Positions 38,126-64,000 of a DNA stretch of 64,000 nucleotides are shown here, in pieces. Below the pieces are notes generated by a model that made no database searches, had not been told where the DNA came from, and saw nothing but the letters and a program-made list of their open reading frames with translations. Numbering within the stretch: the stretch's first letter is position 1; each line of letters begins with the position of its first letter. Both the position numbers and the translations under genes were made by a program. The DNA is from Sphingomonas koreensis (GTDB lineage: Bacteria > Pseudomonadota > Alphaproteobacteria > Sphingomonadales > Sphingomonadaceae): positions 2,354,501-2,418,500 of the forward strand of contig NZ_PGEN01000001.1 of the NCBI RefSeq assembly GCF_002797435.1. The letters run 5' to 3'.

Positions 38126-39664
38126 TCAGCTCGCTAAGGACGGCGCCTTGCAGTGGCGGTCGATAAAGGCCTGATGGGTCGGCATCGCCGCCGCGACATC
38201 GGCGTTCACCTCCTCGATGTCGCGCATGAACGCGATCACGTCCTCGTCGGGGATCATGTCGACGACCGGGTCGTAGGTCATCGCCATTCCCTGACCGAGC
38301 AGCACCTGAACCCAGCTCTCCTCGCGGAACAGCTCGGCCTTGCCGTGGACGAAGAAGCGGGCCGAGGCGCGGAACAGCTCAAGCCGCTCGGCGAGGCTGT
38401 CGGGCACCTCCATATGCCGGACATGCGCCCAGAAGGGCGTGTCCTCGCGATTGGTGACCTTGTAGTGCGCGATGATGAAGTCGCGGACGTCGTCGAACTC
38501 GAAATTGTGCTGGCGATTATATTCGGCGATGTCGGCGGCGTTGAAGCCCTGACCCGGGAACAGCGCCACGAGCTTCAGGATGCCGGTCTGGATCAGGTGG
38601 ATGCTGGTCGATTCCAGCGGCTCGAGAAAGCCGCTGGAAAGGCCGATCGCGACGACATTCTTCTCCCACGCCTTGTGGCGCTTGCCCGGCGCGAACCGCA
38701 CCGGGCGCGGATCGGCGAGCGCCTTGCCGTCGAGATTGGCAAGCAGCACGTCCGCCGCTTCGTCATCGCTGACATGCGCGCTCGAATAGACATGGCCGTT
38801 GCCGATCCGGTGCTGAAGCGGGATCCGCCATTGCCAGCCCGCTCCGTGCGCCGTGGAGCGTGTATAGGGCGTCAGCGGCGATACGCTCTCGCACGGCACC
38901 GCCAGCGCCCGGTCGCACGGCAGCCAGTGGCTCCAGTCCTCGTAGCCGACGCCCAGCGTCTGTCCGAGCAGCAGTGAGCGCATCCCCGAGCAATCGACGA
39001 ACAGATCGCCCGACACGGTCTGCCCGTCAGCCAGTACCACGCTCTCGACGAACCCGTCCTCCGGGCGCTGCCTGACCTCGACGATCCGGCCTTCGGTCCG
39101 CGTCACACCCTGCGCTTCGGACCGGCCGCGCAGGAAGCGGGCATAGAGCGATGCGTCGAAATGATAGGCATAGTCGAGATGCCCCATCGGCGATCCCGGA
39201 TTGCGCGGATCGGGGAAGCAGAACTTGTTCTGTCGCGCGGCCAGCGTATTGAGCGAATAGAGGTCGAAATGCTTCGCCTGCCCCATTGCGGCGAGCTTGA
39301 GCCACAGCTGGTGCGGGTGGAGCCACATCAGATCGGTGCCGATCTTGCCGAAGCCGTGGATGTAGCGGAAGCCCGGTTCGCGCCAGTTGACGAACTCGAT
39401 CCCCAGCTTGAACGTCGCCTGGGTGGCGCGGATCATCTCGGTCAGGTCGATCCCGGCGAGATGGTTGTAATCCTTGATGCCGGGAATGGTCGCTTCGCCG
39501 ACGCCGATGATCCCGATCTCGTCCGATTCGACCAGGGTGATGTCGTAGCCGCGGAAGAGGAGCTTGGAGAGCAGGGCCGCGGTCATCCAGCCGGCGGTGC
39601 CGCCGCCGACGATCACGATCCGGCGAATCGGCGGGTTTCCCGTGCCCGTCTGGCCAGCCTCCAT
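38126..39664 (-). CDS. Tryptophan 7-halogenase family flavin-dependent halogenase
   Basis: The 512-residue product keeps the defining features of flavin-dependent halogenases: GGGTAGW (near residue 20), the WxWxIP motif as WQWRIP (277-282), the catalytic lysine K86 in TFKLGIEFVNW (equivalent to RebH K79) and the EPLEST segment with E351. Sphingomonads and relatives carry such genes near TonB receptors rather than in antibiotic clusters, and their true substrate is mostly unknown. Here it stands alone, downstream of tRNA-Leu on the same strand. A flavin reductase is not nearby. Confidence 0.9.
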   Translation of the reverse strand: MEAGQTGTGNPPIRRIVIVGGGTAGWMTAALLSKLLFRGYDITLVESDEIGIIGVGEATIPGIKDYNHLAGIDLTEMIRATQATFKLGIEFVNWREPGFRYIHGFGKIGTDLMWLHPHQLWLKLAAMGQAKHFDLYSLNTLAARQNKFCFPDPRNPGSPMGHLDYAYHFDASLYARFLRGRSEAQGVTRTEGRIVEVRQRPEDGFVESVVLADGQTVSGDLFVDCSGMRSLLLGQTLGVGYEDWSHWLPCDRALAVPCESVSPLTPYTRSTAHGAGWQWRIPLQHRIGNGHVYSSAHVSDDEAADVLLANLDGKALADPRPVRFAPGKRHKAWEKNVVAIGLSSGFLEPLESTSIHLIQTGILKLVALFPGQGFNAADIAEYNRQHNFEFDDVRDFIIAHYKVTNREDTPFWAHVRHMEVPDSLAERLELFRASARFFVHGKAELFREESWVQVLLGQGMAMTYDPVVDMIPDEDVIAFMRDIEEVNADVAAAMPTHQAFIDRHCKAPSLAS

Positions 39665-39734
39665 CCCTTGATCCCCTCATGCACCGGCTCCGGTGTCCGG
39701 ATGCCTTGTATAGCGGGGTAGGTATAGAGAGGCA

Positions 39735-39770
39735 CTGGCGGGCGGTAAACGGTTACACACCACCCGCCAG
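39735..39770 (-). promoter_or_regulatory. Hairpin with operator-like sequence in its loop, between tRNA-Leu and halogenase
   Basis: An 8-pair stem (CTGGCGGG / CCCGCCAG, extended by GG/CC after one mismatch) encloses a loop that contains GTAAACGGTTAC (39745-39756). That core differs at one base from GTAACCGGTTAC found upstream of the TonB receptor and between lacI and the GH3 gene. As a hairpin after the tRNA it could limit read-through; as DNA it could bind the LacI regulator in front of the halogenase (start 39664). Confidence 0.5.
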
Positions 39771-39822: not shown

Positions 39823-39909
39823 TGGTGCGGTCGAGAAGACTCGAACTTCCACGGGCTTTCGCCCACAACGACCTCAACGTTGCGCGTCTACCAGTTCCGC
39901 CACGACCGC
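39823..39909 (-). tRNA. tRNA-Leu (anticodon GAG)
   Basis: The 87-base gene folds as a class II tRNA. The acceptor stem GCGGTCG pairs with CGACCGC; the anticodon stem CAACG/CGTTG encloses TTGAGGT (anticodon GAG, reading CTC/CTT); there is a long variable arm (GGGC-gaaa-GCCC) and a T loop TTCGAGT. The 3' CCA is encoded. No repeated 3' end that would mark an integrated element was seen nearby. Confidence 0.96.
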
Positions 39910-51534: not shown

Positions 51535-54732
<3,198 letters not shown>

Positions 54733-54872: not shown

Positions 54873-54886
54873 TGTAACCGGTTACA
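54873..54886. promoter_or_regulatory. Palindromic operator upstream of the TonB receptor gene
   Basis: TGTAACCGGTTACA is a perfect 14-base palindrome with a central CG, as is usual for LacI-family operators. It lies 45 bases before the receptor ATG; TTGACA at 54806-54811 could be a -35 element upstream of it. The same core recurs at 63005-63016 beside the lacI gene. Confidence 0.75.
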
Positions 54887-54931
54887 TCAACGATCCAGAT
54901 CGATCGAACCGGTGTTTAGGGGAGCAGATTG

Positions 54932-57871
54932 ATGACGGATTTCCGTAGCAAACGTTCGAGTCTCGTCCGCGGCGTTTCCGCGGGCGCCTTTGCCGCCGCG
55001 CTGATGGTCAGCACCTCCGCCTTCGCCCAGACCACCGCGACCCTGCAGGGGCGCGTAGAGGGTGCGAGCGCGGGTAGCACCGTGACCGTCACCGACACCG
55101 TCACCGGCCGGTCGGTAACGACCACCACCCGCGCCGACGGCAGCTTCACGGTCGTCGGTCTGCGTCCCAGCACCTATCGCGTCGAGGCGCAGGGGCAGGA
55201 GGCGCAGCAGGTCTCCCTCCCGGTCGGTCAGATCGTCAACGTCGATCTCGCGCCGCCGGCTCCCGCCGGCGATGAAGTCGTGGTAACGGGCCTGCGCGGC
55301 CGGTCCGAAGTTCGCACCGCAACGATCGGAACCAGCGTCAGCCAGGCGCAGATCGAGAATCTGCCGCAGACCAGCCGTAACTTCCTGAACTTCGCGGCGC
55401 TGGCTCCGGGCGTCACCCTGCCTGCCGGCGAGAATGTTGGCATCCAGGCTGGCGGCGTCAGCTCGAACAACGTCAACGTCTTCATTGACGGCACCAGCCA
55501 GAAGAGCCAGGTCGGCTTTGGCGGTGTGGCTGGTCAGAATTTCTCGAAGGGCAATCCCTTCCCGCAGTCGGCGATCCAGGAATTCCGGGTCGAGACCCAG
55601 AACTTCAAGGCTGAGTTCGAGAATGCCGGCTCCGCGATCATCACCGCGGTCACCAAGACCGGCGGCGAAGAGTTCCACGGCAGCGCATTCGGTAAGTATG
55701 TGCCCAAATCCTGGTACGGCCGTCCGTTCTTCGACCGGCCGGGCGAAGCCAACAATCCGACCGGCGCCAATGCAAAGCCCGATTACAAACGTTGGCAGTT
55801 CGGCGGCGATCTGGGCGGCCCGATCGTTCCCGGCGTGCTGCACTTCTTCGGCGCCTATGAAGGCACGCGCCAGACGAGCCCGGCAAAGATCGTCAATCCG
55901 TCCGCACTGCTGCCCGGGACGATCCGCGACCGCTTCGGTGGCAACTTCGCCGCGGATTTCAAGCAGGACCTGTACTTCGCGAAGTTGACGCTGTTCGCGT
56001 CGGATCGCGATACGATCAGCGGCAGCTACTTCTTGCGCAAGGAAACCGACGTCAAGGACTATGGCGACAACCGCGCATTCGAACAGGGGCGCGACGTCGG
56101 TACCGAGAGCAAGAACTACCAGCTCGAATGGGCGCATCGCGGCGACGGCTTCCTGAACGAACTCACCTTCAGCTATTTCAACAACTTCACTGGCACGCCG
56201 ACAATTACGACCGGCCCGGAATATGTGCTGACCAACGGCGTCGGCGGCGGCGACCTGTTCTTCTTCGGGGCGAATTCGTTCCAGCAGGCGAACGAGCAGG
56301 AAAGCTTCACCTTCAAGAACAACTTCACCTACACCGGCTGGGAAAACCATGTGGTGAAGGCGGGCGTCAAGATCTCGATGAATACGCTGACGCGTGTCGA
56401 GGATGCGTTCGCCAACGGCTCCTACAAGTTCGCCTACCAGAATTTCACCAGCGAAAGCAGCAGCATACCCTATCGCGCGACGATCTCGCTGCTGCCGCCA
56501 ACGCCGATGGAGGCGGACAATGTCCAAGTCGGTCTGTTCCTGCAGGACGACTGGACGATCGACGATCACTGGACCGTCAATCTCGGCCTGCGCTGGGACT
56601 ATGAATCCAACAACTTCAACAACAACTACCGCACGCCTGAGAAAGTCGCGACGGCGCTGCGCAATTATCAGCCGTGGCAGGCCGCGGGAATCAACCCTGA
56701 GGATTACATCACCGACGGGACCAAGCGGAAACCGTTCCTGGGTGCGTTCCAGCCGCGCGTCGGCATCAGCTACGACGTCAACGGCGATCGCGATCTGGTC
56801 TTCTTCGCCGGTGCCGGCCGCTACTATGACCGCAACATCTACTACCTCGCCTCACTGGAGACACTGTTCAACAACATCCGCAGCGATGCATCGGTGAACT
56901 TCTGCGGCGCGTCCGGCCTTCCGGCATGCGCACCGGGGCTGTTGCAGTGGAGCGAGGCTTATCGCAATCCCGATGCGCTGCGCGCCGCGGTCGCGCAGAC
57001 GGGGCTGTCCGGTGACATCTGGGTCATCAACAATGATGCGAAAGTGCCATACACCGACCAGTTCACGCTCGGCGTGCGCAAGCGGCTCGGCCCGGTCCAG
57101 CTCTCGGCCGCGGTCGCGCACAATCGCTCGCACAACGCCTTCATCTTCGTGCGGGGCAACCGCCAGACCAACGGAAATTATACCGATGGCGGCTTCGGCT
57201 GGGTGCGCGACAATTTCCCGGCGGGCAACGGCCTCGTCCCCGGCTATACCGGGCGCCTCAACATCGGATCGAGCGAAGGCAAGGCCAAGTACACCGCGCT
57301 CTACCTGACCGCCGACAAGACCTACACCAAGGATTCGGGCTGGGGCGCGACCGCATCGCTCACAATCTCGGATGCCAAGTCGAACCAGGCGATCTCGTTC
57401 GACGAGGGGCAGATGTTCAACGCGGGCAAGCAGGATGCGTTCGGCTGGCAGCCGACCCGCAACCTCGAACGCTGGCGCTTCGTCGCGACCGGCATGGGCG
57501 ACCTGCCCTGGGGTTTCCAGGTCGCGGGCACGCTGACGCTCGCCTCAGGACCGCGCTTCGGCAATGTCGACTTTAGCCGCACGCCTCCGCCCAATTGCGG
57601 TGGCTGCTTCTACTACAACGATGCCGGCGTCTTCTCGCCCAAGCAGAGCATCGGGTACAAGAATGTCGATCTGCGCATCGCCAAGACGTTCAAGGTGCCG
57701 GGGATCGGCGGTGAACTGACCGCAGACTTCGAAGTGTTCAACGTCTTCGACTGGGTCAACCGCAACTATTCGACCTGGGGTGCCGGCAGCGGCCCCAATC
57801 CGACGCGTGAAGAGAATTCGACCGTTGGTTACGCCCGTACCTTCCAGGCGGGCCTCAAGTACAAATTCTGA
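54932..57871 (+). CDS. TonB-dependent receptor with N-terminal carboxypeptidase-regulatory-like domain
   Basis: This outer-membrane transporter, 979 residues, takes up a substrate with energy from TonB. A signal peptide ends SAFA (about residue 33). A CarboxypepD_reg-like domain (about 35-105) and a plug domain (about 115-240, EVVVTGLRGRSEV) precede the barrel, which ends with an aromatic residue (KYKF). This Oar/SusC-like shape is common for glycan or siderophore-like substrates. The ATG at 54932 has GGGGAG upstream. The genes around it suggest a carbohydrate. Confidence 0.92.
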   Translation: MTDFRSKRSSLVRGVSAGAFAAALMVSTSAFAQTTATLQGRVEGASAGSTVTVTDTVTGRSVTTTTRADGSFTVVGLRPSTYRVEAQGQEAQQVSLPVGQIVNVDLAPPAPAGDEVVVTGLRGRSEVRTATIGTSVSQAQIENLPQTSRNFLNFAALAPGVTLPAGENVGIQAGGVSSNNVNVFIDGTSQKSQVGFGGVAGQNFSKGNPFPQSAIQEFRVETQNFKAEFENAGSAIITAVTKTGGEEFHGSAFGKYVPKSWYGRPFFDRPGEANNPTGANAKPDYKRWQFGGDLGGPIVPGVLHFFGAYEGTRQTSPAKIVNPSALLPGTIRDRFGGNFAADFKQDLYFAKLTLFASDRDTISGSYFLRKETDVKDYGDNRAFEQGRDVGTESKNYQLEWAHRGDGFLNELTFSYFNNFTGTPTITTGPEYVLTNGVGGGDLFFFGANSFQQANEQESFTFKNNFTYTGWENHVVKAGVKISMNTLTRVEDAFANGSYKFAYQNFTSESSSIPYRATISLLPPTPMEADNVQVGLFLQDDWTIDDHWTVNLGLRWDYESNNFNNNYRTPEKVATALRNYQPWQAAGINPEDYITDGTKRKPFLGAFQPRVGISYDVNGDRDLVFFAGAGRYYDRNIYYLASLETLFNNIRSDASVNFCGASGLPACAPGLLQWSEAYRNPDALRAAVAQTGLSGDIWVINNDAKVPYTDQFTLGVRKRLGPVQLSAAVAHNRSHNAFIFVRGNRQTNGNYTDGGFGWVRDNFPAGNGLVPGYTGRLNIGSSEGKAKYTALYLTADKTYTKDSGWGATASLTISDAKSNQAISFDEGQMFNAGKQDAFGWQPTRNLERWRFVATGMGDLPWGFQVAGTLTLASGPRFGNVDFSRTPPPNCGGCFYYNDAGVFSPKQSIGYKNVDLRIAKTFKVPGIGGELTADFEVFNVFDWVNRNYSTWGAGSGPNPTREENSTVGYARTFQAGLKYKF

Positions 57872-57891
57872 CCCCAGGATCAGGCATGTGC

Positions 57892-57918
57892 GGGGGAGGG
57901 AGCCGTGCTTCCTCCCCC
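57892..57918 (+). terminator. Long hairpin between the TonB receptor and DUF6445 genes
   Basis: GGGGGAGG-g-AGC pairs with GCT-t-CCTCCCCC around a three-base loop, a 12-pair stem with one wobble. It starts 20 bases after the receptor stop and has no T tract. It could trim or dampen read-through into the downstream genes, so that the receptor is made in excess. A GTG at 57905 falls inside it. Confidence 0.5.
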
Positions 57919-57943
57919 ATTCCTACCGGCCGGGAGAGATGGG

Positions 57944-58618
57944 GTGAAACCCGAGCTGCACCGTTTCGGCCATAGCCGGCAGCCGGTCGTCACCGTCGAC
58001 GGGATCACCGGCGATCCTGCCGGCGTGATTGCACTGGCCGCGCGCCTTGCTCCCTTTCCGCTGAGCTCGACCTATTACCCCGGGCTACGCCGCGTCCTGA
58101 GCGAAGACGATGCCGATGCGTTTTCCTATGCCTGCGGGCTGCTCGAAGCTGCCGCGCCCTTCATTGGCGGCGCCTTCGACGCCGACAGCTTCGATCTGCT
58201 CGAGGCGAGCTTTTCCATCGTCACGACGCCGCCTCAGGCACTGACTCCTGCGCAGCGCGCGCCGCATTTCGACTCGACCGACGCCCGCTATGTCGCGGTG
58301 CTTCACTATCTCGCCGAAGCGCCCGGCAGCGGCACCGGCTTCTACCGCCAGCGCTCGACGGGCATCGAACTGATCGACGAGCGCAATCGCGATGCCTTTG
58401 TTTCAGCGGCGAAGGCAGAAAGCGCGAGGCTCAAGGGATATACCAATGCCAGCAACGCCAGCTTCGACCAGATCGGCCGAATCGACGCGGTGCCCGACCG
58501 GCTCGTCATCTATCGTGGGGCATTGCTCCACTCCGGGATCATTCCATCCGGCCTCAAGCTCAGCGCCGATCCGCGTCAGGGCCGGCTTACCGCCAATCTG
58601 TTCATCCATATTCATTGA
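57944..58618 (+). CDS. DUF6445 family protein, dioxygenase-like
   Basis: The 224-residue product matches DUF6445 (FPLSSTYYPGLRR, SIVTTPPQALTPAQRAPHFDST). A pattern of HFD, then YRGALLHSG and GRLTANLFIH gives a HxD...H...R arrangement seen in Fe(II)/2-oxoglutarate oxygenases. The fold is inferred. The GTG at 57944 has GGGAG upstream; the alternative GTG at 57905 is buried in the hairpin. Members often lie near TonB receptors and tryptophan-halogenase-like genes, as this one does at a distance. Confidence 0.8.
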   Translation: MKPELHRFGHSRQPVVTVDGITGDPAGVIALAARLAPFPLSSTYYPGLRRVLSEDDADAFSYACGLLEAAAPFIGGAFDADSFDLLEASFSIVTTPPQALTPAQRAPHFDSTDARYVAVLHYLAEAPGSGTGFYRQRSTGIELIDERNRDAFVSAAKAESARLKGYTNASNASFDQIGRIDAVPDRLVIYRGALLHSGIIPSGLKLSADPRQGRLTANLFIHIH

Positions 58619-58629
58619 GGACCCGACCG

Positions 58630-60447
58630 ATGCTCAGGCACGCCGTTGCACTCACCGCGCTGATCGTCGCCACCACAACCGCGGCGCAGCCGGGCAAACG
58701 CAGCTATGCCAATCCGATCGACATCGATTACCGCTACAATTTCGAGCAGGTGAACGAGGGGGTTTCATACCGCACCGGTGCCGATCCGGTGATCGTTCGG
58801 CACAAGGGTGCCTATTATCTCTTCCAGACGCTCGCCGACGGATATTGGCGATCGACCAACCTCGTCGACTGGACCTTCATCACGCCGAGCCGGTGGGAGA
58901 ATGACAGTTTCGTCGCGCCCGCCGCCTGGTCGGACGGCGAACGGCTCTACCTCATGCCCTCGATGATGGAGCCGGGCGCGATCTACGTCTCCGACGCGCC
59001 TGAGACCGGCAAGCTCGACTATTTCGTTCGCCGCATGCCGCGCCTTCCTGGACAGGTGCGCCCGGGCGAGGAGGAGAAGATGAAGCCCGGCGAGATCCCG
59101 CCCGGCCCGTGGGACCCCGCGCTGTTCCTCGACGATGACGGCAAATGGTATCTCTACTGGAACTCGTCCAACGTCTTCCCGCTTTATGGGCTGGAGATCG
59201 AGTTCAGGGACGGCAAGCTCATTTACAAGGGGCCGGCGAAGGAAATGTTCAGGCTCCATCCCGACCGGCATGGCTGGGAGCGGTTCGGGCAGGATCATTC
59301 GGGCGGCCTCCCCAACGGCACCCCGATCGCGCCCTTCATGGAGGGCGCATGGATGACCAAGGTCGGCGGCACCTACTATCTCCAGTATGGCGCGCCGGGC
59401 ACCGAGTATAACGCCTATGCCAACGGCACCTACACCTCGAAATCGCCGCTCGGCCCGTGGACCTATGCGCCGTGGAACCCGGTCGCCTACAAGCCCGGCG
59501 GCTTTGTCGAGGGGGCAGGGCACGGTTCGACCTTCGAGGACAATCACGGCAACTGGTGGAACACCGGCACGCCGTGGCTCGGCGCCAACTGGACGTTCGA
59601 GCGGCGGATCAACCTGTTCCCGGCGAAGTTCGAGGCGGACGGGCAGATGTGGTCGTCCGCGCGCTTCGGCGACTTCCCGCACTGGGCGCCGGAAGGGAAG
59701 GTCGACGACATCGAATCGCTCTTCACCGGCTGGATGCTGCTGTCCTACCGCAAGCAACTCACGGCCTCCTCGACGCTCGGCGAGTATGAGGCGAGCCGCG
59801 CCGCGGACGAGAATCCGCGCAGCTTCTGGGTCGCGGGGAGCAAGCAGCCGGGCGAGACGCTGACGATGGATCTTGGCGCGGCGAAGACCGTCCGCGCGAT
59901 TCAGGTCAATTTCGCCGACTACAAGGCCGGCCGCTTCGCCGATGCGCCCGACATCTATACCGAATTCCGCATCGAGGGTTCGGCCGACGGCAGGAGCTGG
60001 TCGACGATCGCGCAGACCGAGGGCCCGCGCCGCGACCGGCCGAACGCCTATCTCGAACTCAGGACGCCCGCGAAGGTCCGCTATGTCCGCTATGTCCACG
60101 GTCATATCGGCGGCGCACATCTCGCGATCAACGACCTGCGCGTGTTCGGCAATGCCGACGGCGCCGCACCCGCCGCGCCGGGCGGGATCACCGCGATCCG
60201 CGACACCGATCAACGCAACGCCCGCGTGACCTGGCGCAAGGTGCCGGGCGCGACCGGCTACAATGTCTTGTGGGGCGTGCGCCCCGATCGGCTGACGCTC
60301 ACCTATCAGGTCTTCGCCGACGAGCTGGGCGCGGACGCGAAGCTCGATATCCGCGCGCTCAACCTCGGTACCGGCTACTACGCCGCGGTCGAGGCGTTCA
60401 ACGAAACCGGCGTATCGAAGCGCAGCAGGCCGGTGCGCATCCGCTGA
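58630..60447 (+). CDS. GH43-like glycoside hydrolase with discoidin and fibronectin-like domains
   Basis: The 605-residue product has a signal peptide (about 19 residues, ending TTAA). A five-bladed GH43-type propeller follows: the base Asp in RTGADPVIV (D52), the middle Asp in WDPALFLDDDGKWYL (near 160) and the acid Glu in FMEGAWMTKVGGTYYL (near 240). A F5/8-type-C (discoidin) domain (about 375-505) and a fibronectin-III-like end (about 510-600) follow. Arabinosidase or xylosidase activity is typical of GH43, but the actual sugar cannot be read. The ATG at 58630 follows GAGGACC. Confidence 0.82.
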   Translation: MLRHAVALTALIVATTTAAQPGKRSYANPIDIDYRYNFEQVNEGVSYRTGADPVIVRHKGAYYLFQTLADGYWRSTNLVDWTFITPSRWENDSFVAPAAWSDGERLYLMPSMMEPGAIYVSDAPETGKLDYFVRRMPRLPGQVRPGEEEKMKPGEIPPGPWDPALFLDDDGKWYLYWNSSNVFPLYGLEIEFRDGKLIYKGPAKEMFRLHPDRHGWERFGQDHSGGLPNGTPIAPFMEGAWMTKVGGTYYLQYGAPGTEYNAYANGTYTSKSPLGPWTYAPWNPVAYKPGGFVEGAGHGSTFEDNHGNWWNTGTPWLGANWTFERRINLFPAKFEADGQMWSSARFGDFPHWAPEGKVDDIESLFTGWMLLSYRKQLTASSTLGEYEASRAADENPRSFWVAGSKQPGETLTMDLGAAKTVRAIQVNFADYKAGRFADAPDIYTEFRIEGSADGRSWSTIAQTEGPRRDRPNAYLELRTPAKVRYVRYVHGHIGGAHLAINDLRVFGNADGAAPAAPGGITAIRDTDQRNARVTWRKVPGATGYNVLWGVRPDRLTLTYQVFADELGADAKLDIRALNLGTGYYAAVEAFNETGVSKRSRPVRIR

Positions 60448-60468
60448 CGCGCACCGGTTGAGCCAGGG

Positions 60469-61908
60469 TCAGGCGGCCAGCCACCCGCCGGTGAACCCGG
60501 CCGCCTCCAGCCCGCGCCGGATCACCTTCGATCCGCGCATCACCTTCCAAACGAAATCGCTGCGATAATTCGCCGCCTGCAACAGGATCGGTCCCTGATC
60601 GATGCCGATATAGTCGGTATCGACCCAGCCATGCTTGCCGTTGATCCGGCCGTTGGCGAGCTTCTTGTCGGTCCAGGTGAAGCTGGGGTTGAACGAATCG
60701 AGGAAGCCGTACTGGCTGTAGAGGCCCGGCCATTTGCGCAGTGCGTTCGCGGCCGGGATCACGATCTCGGGCGCGAAGGGCAGCGAGCCGAGCGCCGCGG
60801 TCGGCGCGAGCGTGCCGTCGTCATACGCGTCGGGCTGGCCCAGCGGCCCGCGCGCCGAATAGGCACGGAACGTGGCCGTCCGCCCCTTGAAGGGAAGGTT
60901 GTATCCGCCCGGCCCGTCGCAAGCCGTCAGGCCCCAAATGTCCTTGGAATAGCCGGTCCAGCCCATCGGGTTGGCGATGGCATAGGCGCGCTGCGCATGC
61001 GTCGCGCGGCGGCTGTTCTCGAAATAGTCGATACCCGCTTCGCGCATCACCTTGTCGCGGATGCCGCGGAAATCGACCCAGACATGGCTGTACTGGTGTC
61101 CGAACAGCGGCGCAAAGGCGAGGTGACGGGTCTCGCCCTGCCCGCGCCAGCAATGGTCGTACTTCGCGGTCCACACGTCCCAGCTGTTCGCCGGCACCGG
61201 GTGCGTCGGCGAGGCAAGCGCGAGGATGTAGACGCACATCCCCTCGTTATAACCCTGCCAGCTCGCCGGGATCAGGCCGCGCTCGGGGTGCCAGCCCATC
61301 GAAATCGGCGCGCGGCCGTCGCTGCGGAAGAAGTTCCAGTCGGCACGGGCGTAGATGTCGTGCGCCAGCTTGCGGATCTCGGCTTCGACAGCGTTGTCGG
61401 CGCTGAAATACTCGGCCGCGAACAGGATGCCCATGAACAGAAGTGTGGTGTCCACGCTCGAAAGCTCGTTGGTGCGGAACCGGTGGCCGGTCTCCATGTC
61501 GATGAAGTGGTAGAAGAAACCCTTGTGGCCCGCGGTACCGCTCGGCTCCGGTCCCTGCGGCGCGTTCCAGAAGAAACGCAACGTGGTCAGCGTCAGCTCG
61601 GCCGCCTCGGCACGCGTCACCCAGCCGCGCTCCACGCCCACGGGATAGGCGGTCAGCGCATAGCCCACAGACGCGATCGAGCAGAAGGACTTGCTCGGCC
61701 AGCGATCGGGCACCAGCCCGTTCTTGCGGTTCGCCGTCTGCCAGAAGAAGTCGAAGGTGCGCTTCTCGAGATCGGCGTACCAGCCGGGCAGCGCCGGTTT
61801 GGCAGGGCCGGCCAGCAGCGGGCGGGCGCATGCCGGGGTCAGTGCGGCGGCGCCCAGCGCGGGCGCGGCGAGCAGGGACCGGCGGGTGATCGGGAAACGC
61901 ATCGTCAT
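60469..61908 (-). CDS. GH144-like glucoamylase-family protein (probable beta-1,2-glucanase)
   Basis: The 479-residue product has a Tat-type signal (TRRSLLAAPALGAAALTPAC), with a Cys that could also serve as a lipid site. The body matches the putative glucoamylase family (PF10091), whose characterised members in GH144 are endo-beta-1,2-glucanases. Recognisable segments are WYADLEKRTFDFFWQ, SIASVGYALTAYPVG, FFYHFIDMETGHRF and FGHQYSHVWVDFRG. It follows lacI by 24 bases on the same strand. The substrate is inferred from family membership. Confidence 0.82.
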   Translation of the reverse strand: MTMRFPITRRSLLAAPALGAAALTPACARPLLAGPAKPALPGWYADLEKRTFDFFWQTANRKNGLVPDRWPSKSFCSIASVGYALTAYPVGVERGWVTRAEAAELTLTTLRFFWNAPQGPEPSGTAGHKGFFYHFIDMETGHRFRTNELSSVDTTLLFMGILFAAEYFSADNAVEAEIRKLAHDIYARADWNFFRSDGRAPISMGWHPERGLIPASWQGYNEGMCVYILALASPTHPVPANSWDVWTAKYDHCWRGQGETRHLAFAPLFGHQYSHVWVDFRGIRDKVMREAGIDYFENSRRATHAQRAYAIANPMGWTGYSKDIWGLTACDGPGGYNLPFKGRTATFRAYSARGPLGQPDAYDDGTLAPTAALGSLPFAPEIVIPAANALRKWPGLYSQYGFLDSFNPSFTWTDKKLANGRINGKHGWVDTDYIGIDQGPILLQAANYRSDFVWKVMRGSKVIRRGLEAAGFTGGWLAA

Positions 61909-61932
61909 ATCCTCTCCAGATGTTCCTGTCGT

Positions 61933-62928
61933 TCAGTCGCGCGCCGCGGTGGTGCCGCGCACCACCAGTTCGGCGTCGTGGCGTTCGGCGCGCTGATCCG
62001 CCGGTCCGCCTTCGAGAATATCGATCAGCCGCTCGATCGCGCGCGCGCCCATCTCGGCGATCCGCACGCGCACCGTGGTGAGGCCGAGATAGCGGGCCAG
62101 CGGCACGTCGTCGAAGCCCGCCACGGCGATCTCGCCGGGGACGTCGGCCCCGCCGTTGCGCAGCGCCTGAAGGCAGCCGATCGCCATCATGTCGTTGGCG
62201 GCGAACACGGCATCGCACGCGATACCGTTGGCGCGGATCGCATGGGCTGCAGCTTCACCCGCTTCCTCGGAAAAGTCGCCCGCCAGCACGACCGGTTCGA
62301 TCCCCGGCGCATGGCGGGCCATGGCTGCGCGATAGCCCTCGACGCGTTCGCGCGCATCGACATTGCCGTCGGGTCCGGCGATGTGGACGATCCGCTTGCG
62401 GCCACCGGCAACCAGATGCGCGACCATCGCCTCCATCGCCGCGACATTGTCGAGCCGTATCGTGGGGCGGTCGTCGATCTCCTCCGGGCCGTTGATGAAC
62501 AGCGACGGCAGGGTCGGGGGCAGCGCCGACTGGAGCATCCCGGCGGAAAGGTGCGGCGCCATCACGATCAGCCCGTCGACGCGCCCGCGCATCGCACGCA
62601 GCGCGTTGGCAGCCTGTTCGCTCTCGTCATGGATGTTGGACAGCAGCAGCACATAGCCGCGGCGGCTCGCTTCGCGATCCATGCCGCGCACGAACTCGCT
62701 GAAGAACTCGCCGTGCAGGTCGGGCAGCACGACGCCGACAGCGTGGGCGCGGGCGAGGCTCAGGCTGCGCGCGCCGGCGTGCGGGACGTAGCCCAGCTCG
62801 GCTGCCGCGGCCATGACGCGGTCGCGCGTTTCCTGGCGGACATTGCCGAGCCCGTTCAATGCGCGCGATACCGAAGCGATCGATACCTGCGCCCGGCGTG
62901 CCACATCGCGGATCGTCGCCTCGGCCAT
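61933..62928 (-). CDS. LacI family transcriptional regulator
   Basis: The 331-residue product has the LacI-type N-terminal HTH (TIRDVARRAQVSIASVSRALNG), a hinge helix (LGYVPHAGARSLS) and a periplasmic-binding-like sugar domain. It is transcribed with the GH144-like gene and divergently from the GH3 gene. The palindrome at 63004-63017 lies between them. The effector, probably an oligosaccharide or sugar released by the locus, is unknown. Confidence 0.92.
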   Translation of the reverse strand: MAEATIRDVARRAQVSIASVSRALNGLGNVRQETRDRVMAAAAELGYVPHAGARSLSLARAHAVGVVLPDLHGEFFSEFVRGMDREASRRGYVLLLSNIHDESEQAANALRAMRGRVDGLIVMAPHLSAGMLQSALPPTLPSLFINGPEEIDDRPTIRLDNVAAMEAMVAHLVAGGRKRIVHIAGPDGNVDARERVEGYRAAMARHAPGIEPVVLAGDFSEEAGEAAAHAIRANGIACDAVFAANDMMAIGCLQALRNGGADVPGEIAVAGFDDVPLARYLGLTTVRVRIAEMGARAIERLIDILEGGPADQRAERHDAELVVRGTTAARD

Positions 62929-63003
62929 CTACCCTCTCTCCCCCGGAACGATTACGTATTCGGGCGGATCATTCGCGATTGCAAATTGCAAGTTTCAACG
63001 GCA

Positions 63004-63017
63004 TGTAACCGGTTACT
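63004..63017. promoter_or_regulatory. LacI-type operator between lacI and the GH3 gene
   Basis: TGTAACCGGTTACT matches the perfect palindrome upstream of the TonB receptor at 13 of 14 positions, with the core GTAACCGGTTAC intact. It lies 76 bases before lacI and 92 bases before the GH3 start, so it could control both. Nearby TTGCAA-A-TTGCAA (62979-62991) is a second repeated pattern of unknown meaning. Confidence 0.75.
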
Positions 63018-63108: not shown

Positions 63109-64000
63109 ATGCTCGACACCCGGATTTCCCGCCGCGGGGCGCTGATGGGCGCTGGTGCGATCGCGGCGTGGCTCCACAGCCCGGCGCATGCGCTGCTTAG
63201 CCAGGCTGCAACGGTCGAGGTTCCTCCGTTCATCGACGCGCTGATCGCCAAGATGACGCTCGCCGAAAAGGCGGGCCAGCTCAGCCTGATGGCTTCGGCC
63301 TGGGGCGGCAGCACCGTGATCAACCCTGCCAGCGGCTCGAACGCCAACTTCGAACAGCAGGTCGAGGAAGTCCGCAAGGGCATGCTCACCGGCGTGTTCA
63401 ACGGCAGCGGTACGCATATGTGCCGGATCATGCAGACTGCGGCGATGAAGGAGTCGCGGCTCAAGATCCCGCTGATCTTCGCCGCGGATATCATTCACGG
63501 CCACCGCACCATCTTCCCGGTTCCGGTGGGCGAAGCCGCGAGCTTCGATCCGGCGCTGGCGGAAAGGACTGCGGCCGCTGCATCCTACGAGGCCGCTGCC
63601 GCGGGTATCGACTGGACCTTCGCGCCGATGGTCGACGTCGCACGCGACCAGCGCTGGGGCCGCACCATGGAGGGCGCGGGCGAGGACGTGCATCTCGGCA
63701 ACCTCTTCGCCGCGGCGCGCGTGAAGGGCTTCCAGGGCGCCAGCCTCAAGGCGATCGATACGATGATGGCCTGCGCGAAGCACTTCGCCGCTTATGGCGC
63801 GGCCGAAGCGGGGCTTGATTACAACACCGTCGACGTATCGGAACGGACGCTGCGCGAAGTCTATTTCCCGCCCTTCCAGGCGGCGTTCGGCGCGGGCGCA
63901 CTGTCGGCCATGTCCTCGTTCAACGAGATTTCCGGAATCCCCTCGAACGGCAATGAGTGGCTGATGCGCACCGTGCTGCGCGACGAGTGGAAATATCAGG
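63109..64000 (+). CDS. bglX: GH3 beta-glucosidase, BglX type (3' end cut by window edge)
   Basis: About 297 residues are visible. A Tat-like signal (ISRRGALMGAGAIAAW) is followed by the GH3 core: LIAKMTLAEKAGQL, IPLIFAADIIHGHRTIFPV, WGRTMEGAGEDV and KHFAAYGAAEAGLDYNTVDVSE, which match BglX. The frame ends at LRDEWKYQ, just before the expected nucleophile Asp (VSDW-type), which lies outside the window. The ribosome site AGGAGAGG precedes the ATG. It would cleave glucose from the ends of beta-glucan fragments. Confidence 0.93.
   Translation, partial: MLDTRISRRGALMGAGAIAAWLHSPAHALLSQAATVEVPPFIDALIAKMTLAEKAGQLSLMASAWGGSTVINPASGSNANFEQQVEEVRKGMLTGVFNGSGTHMCRIMQTAAMKESRLKIPLIFAADIIHGHRTIFPVPVGEAASFDPALAERTAAAASYEAAAAGIDWTFAPMVDVARDQRWGRTMEGAGEDVHLGNLFAAARVKGFQGASLKAIDTMMACAKHFAAYGAAEAGLDYNTVDVSERTLREVYFPPFQAAFGAGALSAMSSFNEISGIPSNGNEWLMRTVLRDEWKYQ

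Follow-up and report, generated by a model that had tools for sequence, protein, structure and literature searches.

In a stretch of 64,000 nucleotides of the Sphingomonas koreensis genome (assembly GCF_002797435.1, contig NZ_PGEN01000001.1, positions 2,354,501 to 2,418,500; here called the window), three palindromic sites precede genes for glycan uptake and a flavin-dependent halogenase gene. As a whole, these data are best explained, in our view with good confidence, by operators of the neighbouring LacI-family protein that would control three units, including the halogenase gene. A preliminary description of the window had proposed a perfect palindrome before a TonB receptor gene, a copy matching at 13 of 14 positions between lacI and a GH3 (glycoside hydrolase family 3) gene, a possible third site at the halogenase gene, and no further such palindrome. 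A mismatch scan agreed on each point. We found TGTAACCGGTTACA at 54873-54886 without mismatch, before the receptor operon; TGTAACCGGTTACT at 63004-63017 with one mismatch, between lacI and GH3; and, at the halogenase gene, the 14-mer GGTAAACGGTTACA at 39744-39757, which has two mismatches to TGTAACCGGTTACA and reads TGTAACCGTTTACC on the gene (minus) strand. With three mismatches allowed, the 64 kb contain no copies of TGTAACCGGTTACA beyond these three sites; 0.31 copies were expected, and none of 100 shuffles reached three.

The core of the palindrome, GTAANCGNTTAC, occurs three times in the whole genome (4,398,689 bases in one contig), every time inside the window, and its reversed control occurs once. 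The many unrelated genome-wide matches that the preliminary description had named as counter-evidence are thus absent for the core. Looser matches are uninformative by themselves, because with two mismatches allowed the 14-mer matches seven places in the genome, compared with three for the reversed control. A matrix built from 99 different 18-mers that surround copies of the core in the loci of relatives, from which those identical to window sequence were excluded, ranked the three sites first to third in the window (29.7, 23.6, and 20.4 bits; fourth place, -1.7 bits; top of 20 shuffles, 18.5 bits), a ranking that is biased toward the core since the 18-mers were selected by it. The scan, the core count, and the matrix support all three sites, the loci of relatives in addition the site beside lacI, and the upstream regions of orthologs the halogenase site. 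The even symmetry and central CG fit LacI-family operators, as had been suggested, and the sites also lie upstream of the regulator and its putative targets.

Relatives of the LacI protein were present in 64 of 100 genomes searched (E ≤ 1e-40). We examined 40 LacI-ortholog loci of up to 20 kb each, 39 from the same genus and one from another family, and found the core in 35 of them; in 33 it is no further than 200 bp upstream of lacI, in most cases in the gap that separates lacI from GH3. The core was also present in 36 of 37 loci of a named-contig Sphingomonas set (35 of the 37 titled Sphingomonas), which overlaps the 40-locus set and partly repeats the same genomes, and in 24 of 43 loci outside it (Massilia, Luteibacter, Dyella, Rhodanobacter, and others). 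Four locus sets contained 48 (the 40-locus LacI set), 57, 50, and 36 core copies, compared with means of 0.7, 0.2, 0.4, and 0.4 for 59 other palindromes obtained through permutation of the half-site, among which the maxima were 12, 11, 3, and 6 copies. Most LacI orthologs with sites carry the recognition helix VS[IV]A[ST]VSR. These observations make it very likely that the protein encoded at 61933-62928 is the one that binds the sites, as judged from sequence.

Some loci of relatives, labelled here with L numbers (genomes with G numbers), showed further features. The helix reads VSVASASR instead of VSVASVSR in L057, L058, L069, L070, L080-L082, L192, and L193; most of these loci lack the core beside lacI, and L069 and L070 retain it. 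Tandem operators spaced by 20 bp from start to start precede the receptor gene in L119, L177, L180, L181, L188, and L191, the second being GTAACCGGTTTC, GTAACCGGTTCC, or, in L177, the perfect core; this spacing would place both operators on one face of the helix. L046, L047, L197-L199, and L225 had no match to the receptor or DUF6445 in the fetched stretch, and there the operator directly precedes the GH43-like gene. A PD40/amidohydrolase gene is found at the locus in the same six and in L299; in the window it spans 51535-54732, leaving 140 bp to the operator of the receptor gene.

The third site belongs to a gene on the minus strand (38126-39664) encoding a predicted flavin-dependent halogenase of 512 amino acids (Trp_halogenase, PF04820, at 1.6e-189). 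The protein has the GxGxxG and WxWxIP motifs of the family (GGGTAG at 20 and WQWRIP at 277), together with ATFKLGI at 83 and EPLEST at 348, which we take to contain the catalytic Lys and Glu. The gene stands isolated between a gene of the SSB family and a tRNA-Leu gene, 15 kb from the receptor. This tRNA-Leu(gag) gene (39823-39909) lies just upstream on the same strand, and MatE adjoins the displaced halogenase gene also in G301 and G327. A search of 295 genomes of the genus identified an ortholog in 43, our genome included, at 67-100% identity, and the next halogenase matches were at 59% identity or less among the matches listed (101 genomes). Among the matches listed, any halogenase of G026 stayed at 57% or below, and G015 gave no match at E ≤ 1e-120.

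The orthologs support the third site that the preliminary description had considered possible. Eighteen of the 43, including the one in the window, have their own core upstream, with the 14-mer starting 26-93 bp before the start codon (26-78 bp in the 17 other genomes). On the gene strand, 15 of these 18 sites have the asymmetric variant of the window, GTAACCGTTTAC, in the same orientation, two have GTAACCGGTTAC, and one has GTAACCGCTTAC; the conservation of individual columns largely reflects selection of the sites by pattern. The close relatives G286 (92%) and G301 (87%) share both the displaced gene and its operator. In 19 further orthologs out of 43, the halogenase gene follows lacI and/or the GH144 gene in the same direction, with the core before that unit, an arrangement from which we infer operons. 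A -10-like YTA box follows the core after 17-18 nt in 15 of the 18 promoters with an own site, which would allow TTTAC[CG] within the operator to act as the -35 box. The putative elements in the window, read from the sequence and from the orthologous promoters, are TTTACC inside the operator (39744-39749) and TATACC (39721-39726), both on the minus strand and separated by a 17-nt spacer. The one-base asymmetry, which had made the third site look weak, is thus conserved in its own right and can be plausibly explained, because the variant recurs and fits the -35 role. The neighbourhoods of nine paralogous halogenases (best identities 56-58%) had no core in 177,978 bases. Taken with the rarity of the core, the conserved sites in relatives support the earlier proposal that uptake, hydrolases, DUF6445, and halogenase stand under one sugar signal. 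We regard a shared regulon that includes the halogenase as highly probable, and the common operator at sugar genes and halogenase suggests that the halogenase works in sugar uptake.

We also considered sites elsewhere in the genome. TGTAACCGGTTTCA, with one mismatch, is located outside the window at genome positions 4159605-4159618 (L295:9606) and scored 21.4 bits with the matrix; a second TonB receptor gene, from the same barrel family, begins about 100 bp further on. G286 and G026 have the same fourth site before a receptor gene, and a GH144 paralog at 53-55% comes next; in our own genome no GH144 gene follows the second receptor. Among eight relatives with a close ortholog of the neighbouring response-regulator gene, two have the site beside it and six do not. 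This fourth site is likely a member of the regulon, with less certainty than the three in the window. Three places with two mismatches were not counted: 862302, between two open reading frames (ORFs) that we take to be ruvB and ruvA; 3891248, at the start of an ORF of 154 amino acids without a Pfam match; and 3573365, 52 bp before a third receptor gene, which was set aside because it is poorly kept in relatives (three mismatches in G286 and at least four in five other orthologs, among 12 genomes).

The gene identities given in the preliminary description for the halogenase, receptor, DUF6445, LacI, and GH3 were upheld. The plus strand encodes a TonB-dependent receptor with a CarboxypepD_reg domain (54929-57871), the DUF6445 protein (57905-58618), a GH43-like hydrolase with F5/8C and Fn3 domains (58615-60447), and, beyond lacI, the start of a BglX-type GH3 beta-glucosidase (63109-64000), whose gene extends past the end of the window. 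On the minus strand are a PF10091 enzyme (60469-61908) and the regulator (61933-62928), which has a helix-turn-helix domain (PF00356; VSIASVSR) and a periplasmic-binding-like sensor domain (PF13377), both above the cut-off. A search of an anti-phage library gave no match for the three proteins tried.

The PF10091 protein indicates the likely sugar. Its closest solved sequence is XCC2207 (8XUL; E 2e-169 over residues 34-478, 445 residues), which is XcSGL, a GH144 enzyme described in the accessible text of PMC12102758 as having narrow specificity for beta-1,2-glucans. In a comparison aimed at the XcSGL clan residues E239, F286, and Y367, GYNE of our protein aligned to GYNQ of the solved chain, a mutant according to the same text. 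By its relation to characterised members, the protein is probably a GH144-type beta-1,2-glucanase, and the sugar of the regulon is probably beta-1,2-glucan. Given this GH144 identity and the adjoining GH3 beta-glucosidase, both substrate and inducer are likely to be beta-1,2-glucan or a sophoro-oligosaccharide, as far as families can predict. Our system shares the GH144 kinship with XcSGL; the text of PMC12102758 mentions TonB nowhere and LacI once, and its accessible passages describe neither the genomic neighbourhood of XcSGL nor its control.

The DUF6445 protein is a predicted 2-oxoglutarate/Fe(II) oxygenase. Its structure model has the fold of this family, and H121, D123, H209, and R227 are invariant in 27 sequences; we read the first three as the HxD...H metal triad and R227 as the Arg for 2-oxoglutarate. 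A DUF6445 profile gave one chance-level match among solved sequences. Presence of DUF6445 in the locus and of the halogenase in the genome agreed in 37 of 39 genomes. The 2-oxoglutarate oxygenase PiuC (9QN4; 14% identity) serves iron uptake, whereas DUF6445 would serve glycan uptake.

From the observed sites, their conservation, and the co-occurrence of the genes, binding, repression, inducer, and enzyme substrates can be proposed as follows. The LacI-family product of 61933-62928 would recognise the three palindromes as its operators, and in the absence of sugar it would occupy them and block the divergent lacI-GH144 and GH3 genes as one unit, the operon of TonB receptor, DUF6445, and GH43-like genes as a second, and the separate halogenase gene, where the operator would cover the -35 box, as a third. 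A fragment of beta-1,2-glucan, for example sophorose, would lift repression, a step that we consider somewhat more likely than not. The receptor would import the oligosaccharide, GH144 and GH3 would degrade it, and the halogenase and DUF6445 oxygenase would act together on some partner of the uptake system. The target would more likely be a protein, or a co-substrate with an aromatic ring, than the sugar, since glucan contains no aromatic carbon. Most likely, the halogenase gene was once inside the locus and moved by 15 kb in this lineage, keeping the same operator control.

Several observations weigh against this assignment. The core was absent in 5 of the 40 LacI loci and in 19 of the 43 loci outside the Sphingomonas set. 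Six of the 43 halogenase orthologs have neither an own core nor a place behind lacI/GH144: in G281, G227, and G041 the core is on the other side, before the receptor; in G309 and G170 the halogenase gene adjoins the receptor with no core near; and in G327 it is displaced as in the window, with only a decayed match upstream. A scan of the halogenase upstream region with the strict E. coli sigma-70 consensus found no promoter; genomes of this kind often depart from the E. coli consensus. In favour of the assignment, halogenases at 53-59% identity are present in 15 of the 43 loci outside the Sphingomonas set, 13 of them with the order LacI-receptor-halogenase-GH144, which recurs in gammaproteobacteria. 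Strict orthology was not supported for these halogenases: 14 of the 15 sequences could be placed and form their own clade (L265, with a match of under 400 residues, was excluded), and given this separate clade the gammaproteobacterial link may be an independent recruitment.

That the sites of the glycan locus are real and the one at the halogenase a chance match could be argued from the two differences in 14 positions, the single genomic copy of the reversed control, and the tRNA-Leu gene just upstream. This reading is very improbable and was rejected: the core recurs upstream of the orthologous halogenase in 17 other genomes, 15 of 18 sites share variant and orientation, 15 of 18 have the YTA box at 17-18 nt, and none of nine paralog loci has the core. 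The regulon could also be bound by another LacI-family or global sugar regulator, because the genome has about 21 other LacI-like candidates from a first look (unverified); an even palindrome with a central CG is moreover the commonest LacI-family operator in the accessible text of PMC4052901. The position of the core close upstream of this particular lacI in 33 of 40 loci argues for the neighbouring protein instead, as does its absence (0 copies) from the genome's five other loci with halogenase and receptor genes, of which three have a LacI-like gene, and we consider a different regulator improbable.

A further possibility is that the halogenase serves secondary metabolism and has only taken over the operator to respond to the environment. 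Its three nearest solved relatives in the PDB are 6Y1W, 9LUQ, and 6FRL, of which we take 6Y1W to be Xcc4156 and 6FRL to be BrvH. The family is named for the tryptophan halogenases of natural-product pathways, and the accessible texts on its close characterised relatives report free indole or indole derivatives as in vitro substrates (PMC5945002, PMC7336383). We judge this possibility unlikely, however, as in 19 of 43 genomes the gene follows lacI/GH144 and as the other halogenases of the genome all belong to TonB-receptor loci. Of the eight PF04820 genes, these seven fall into five loci, and every one of the 20-kb stretches (part of the ORFs scanned) also encodes a glycoside hydrolase and a TonB receptor: L308 with GH13 and GH97; L309 with three halogenases, GH20, and Cupin_8; L310 with GH20; L311 with SapC, Cupin_8, and GH3 (by tblastn only); and L312 with LacI, GH3, and GH30. 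Receptor and halogenase genes are 57-76 bp apart in three of the five, and some receptor neighbours are expected by chance because TonB receptors are common here. A comparison of aromatic residues in 51 receptors with a halogenase against 56 others found many differing columns; since the two groups also differ in ancestry, these columns do not point to a target. A broader idea, which we put forward tentatively and hold to be rather doubtful, is that BrvH/Xcc4156-type halogenases do not serve secondary metabolism; each might be dedicated to, and co-induced with, one TonB-receptor glycan-uptake system and, with a 2-oxoglutarate oxygenase (DUF6445, perhaps Cupin_8), modify an aromatic residue, either in the receptor itself or in an envelope partner bound to it.

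Overall, the locus resembles the local sugar regulons of the LacI family (Ravcheev et al. 2014, PMC4052901), in which more than 75% of sites lie 30-140 bp upstream. Even palindrome, central CG, this placement of the sites, and a regulator beside its sugar genes are common to both; in contrast to our system, which includes a halogenase and a predicted 2-oxoglutarate oxygenase, the accessible main text contains neither halogenase nor TonB. The native substrates of BrvH and the Xanthomonas halogenases are reported as unknown in the accessible part of PMC7336383, and the texts on BrvH and Xcc4156 (PMC5945002, PMC7336383) do not mention TonB and, in their accessible passages, describe no regulon, whereas the halogenase described here sits in a putative LacI regulon. 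In the open-access literature, at the level of titles and abstract starts, we found no report that connects halogenases of this type with TonB receptors and a regulon under LacI control; subscription journals and regulon databases (RegPrecise) may contain such work. The conserved operator assigns the halogenase, even when displaced, to a likely beta-1,2-glucan uptake regulon together with a predicted 2-oxoglutarate oxygenase. The question of its target becomes testable, because an inducer, a set of partners, and a regulator mutant are now suggested. The regulator and its sites would also provide a candidate sensor and operator for the use of beta-1,2-glucan in Sphingomonas.

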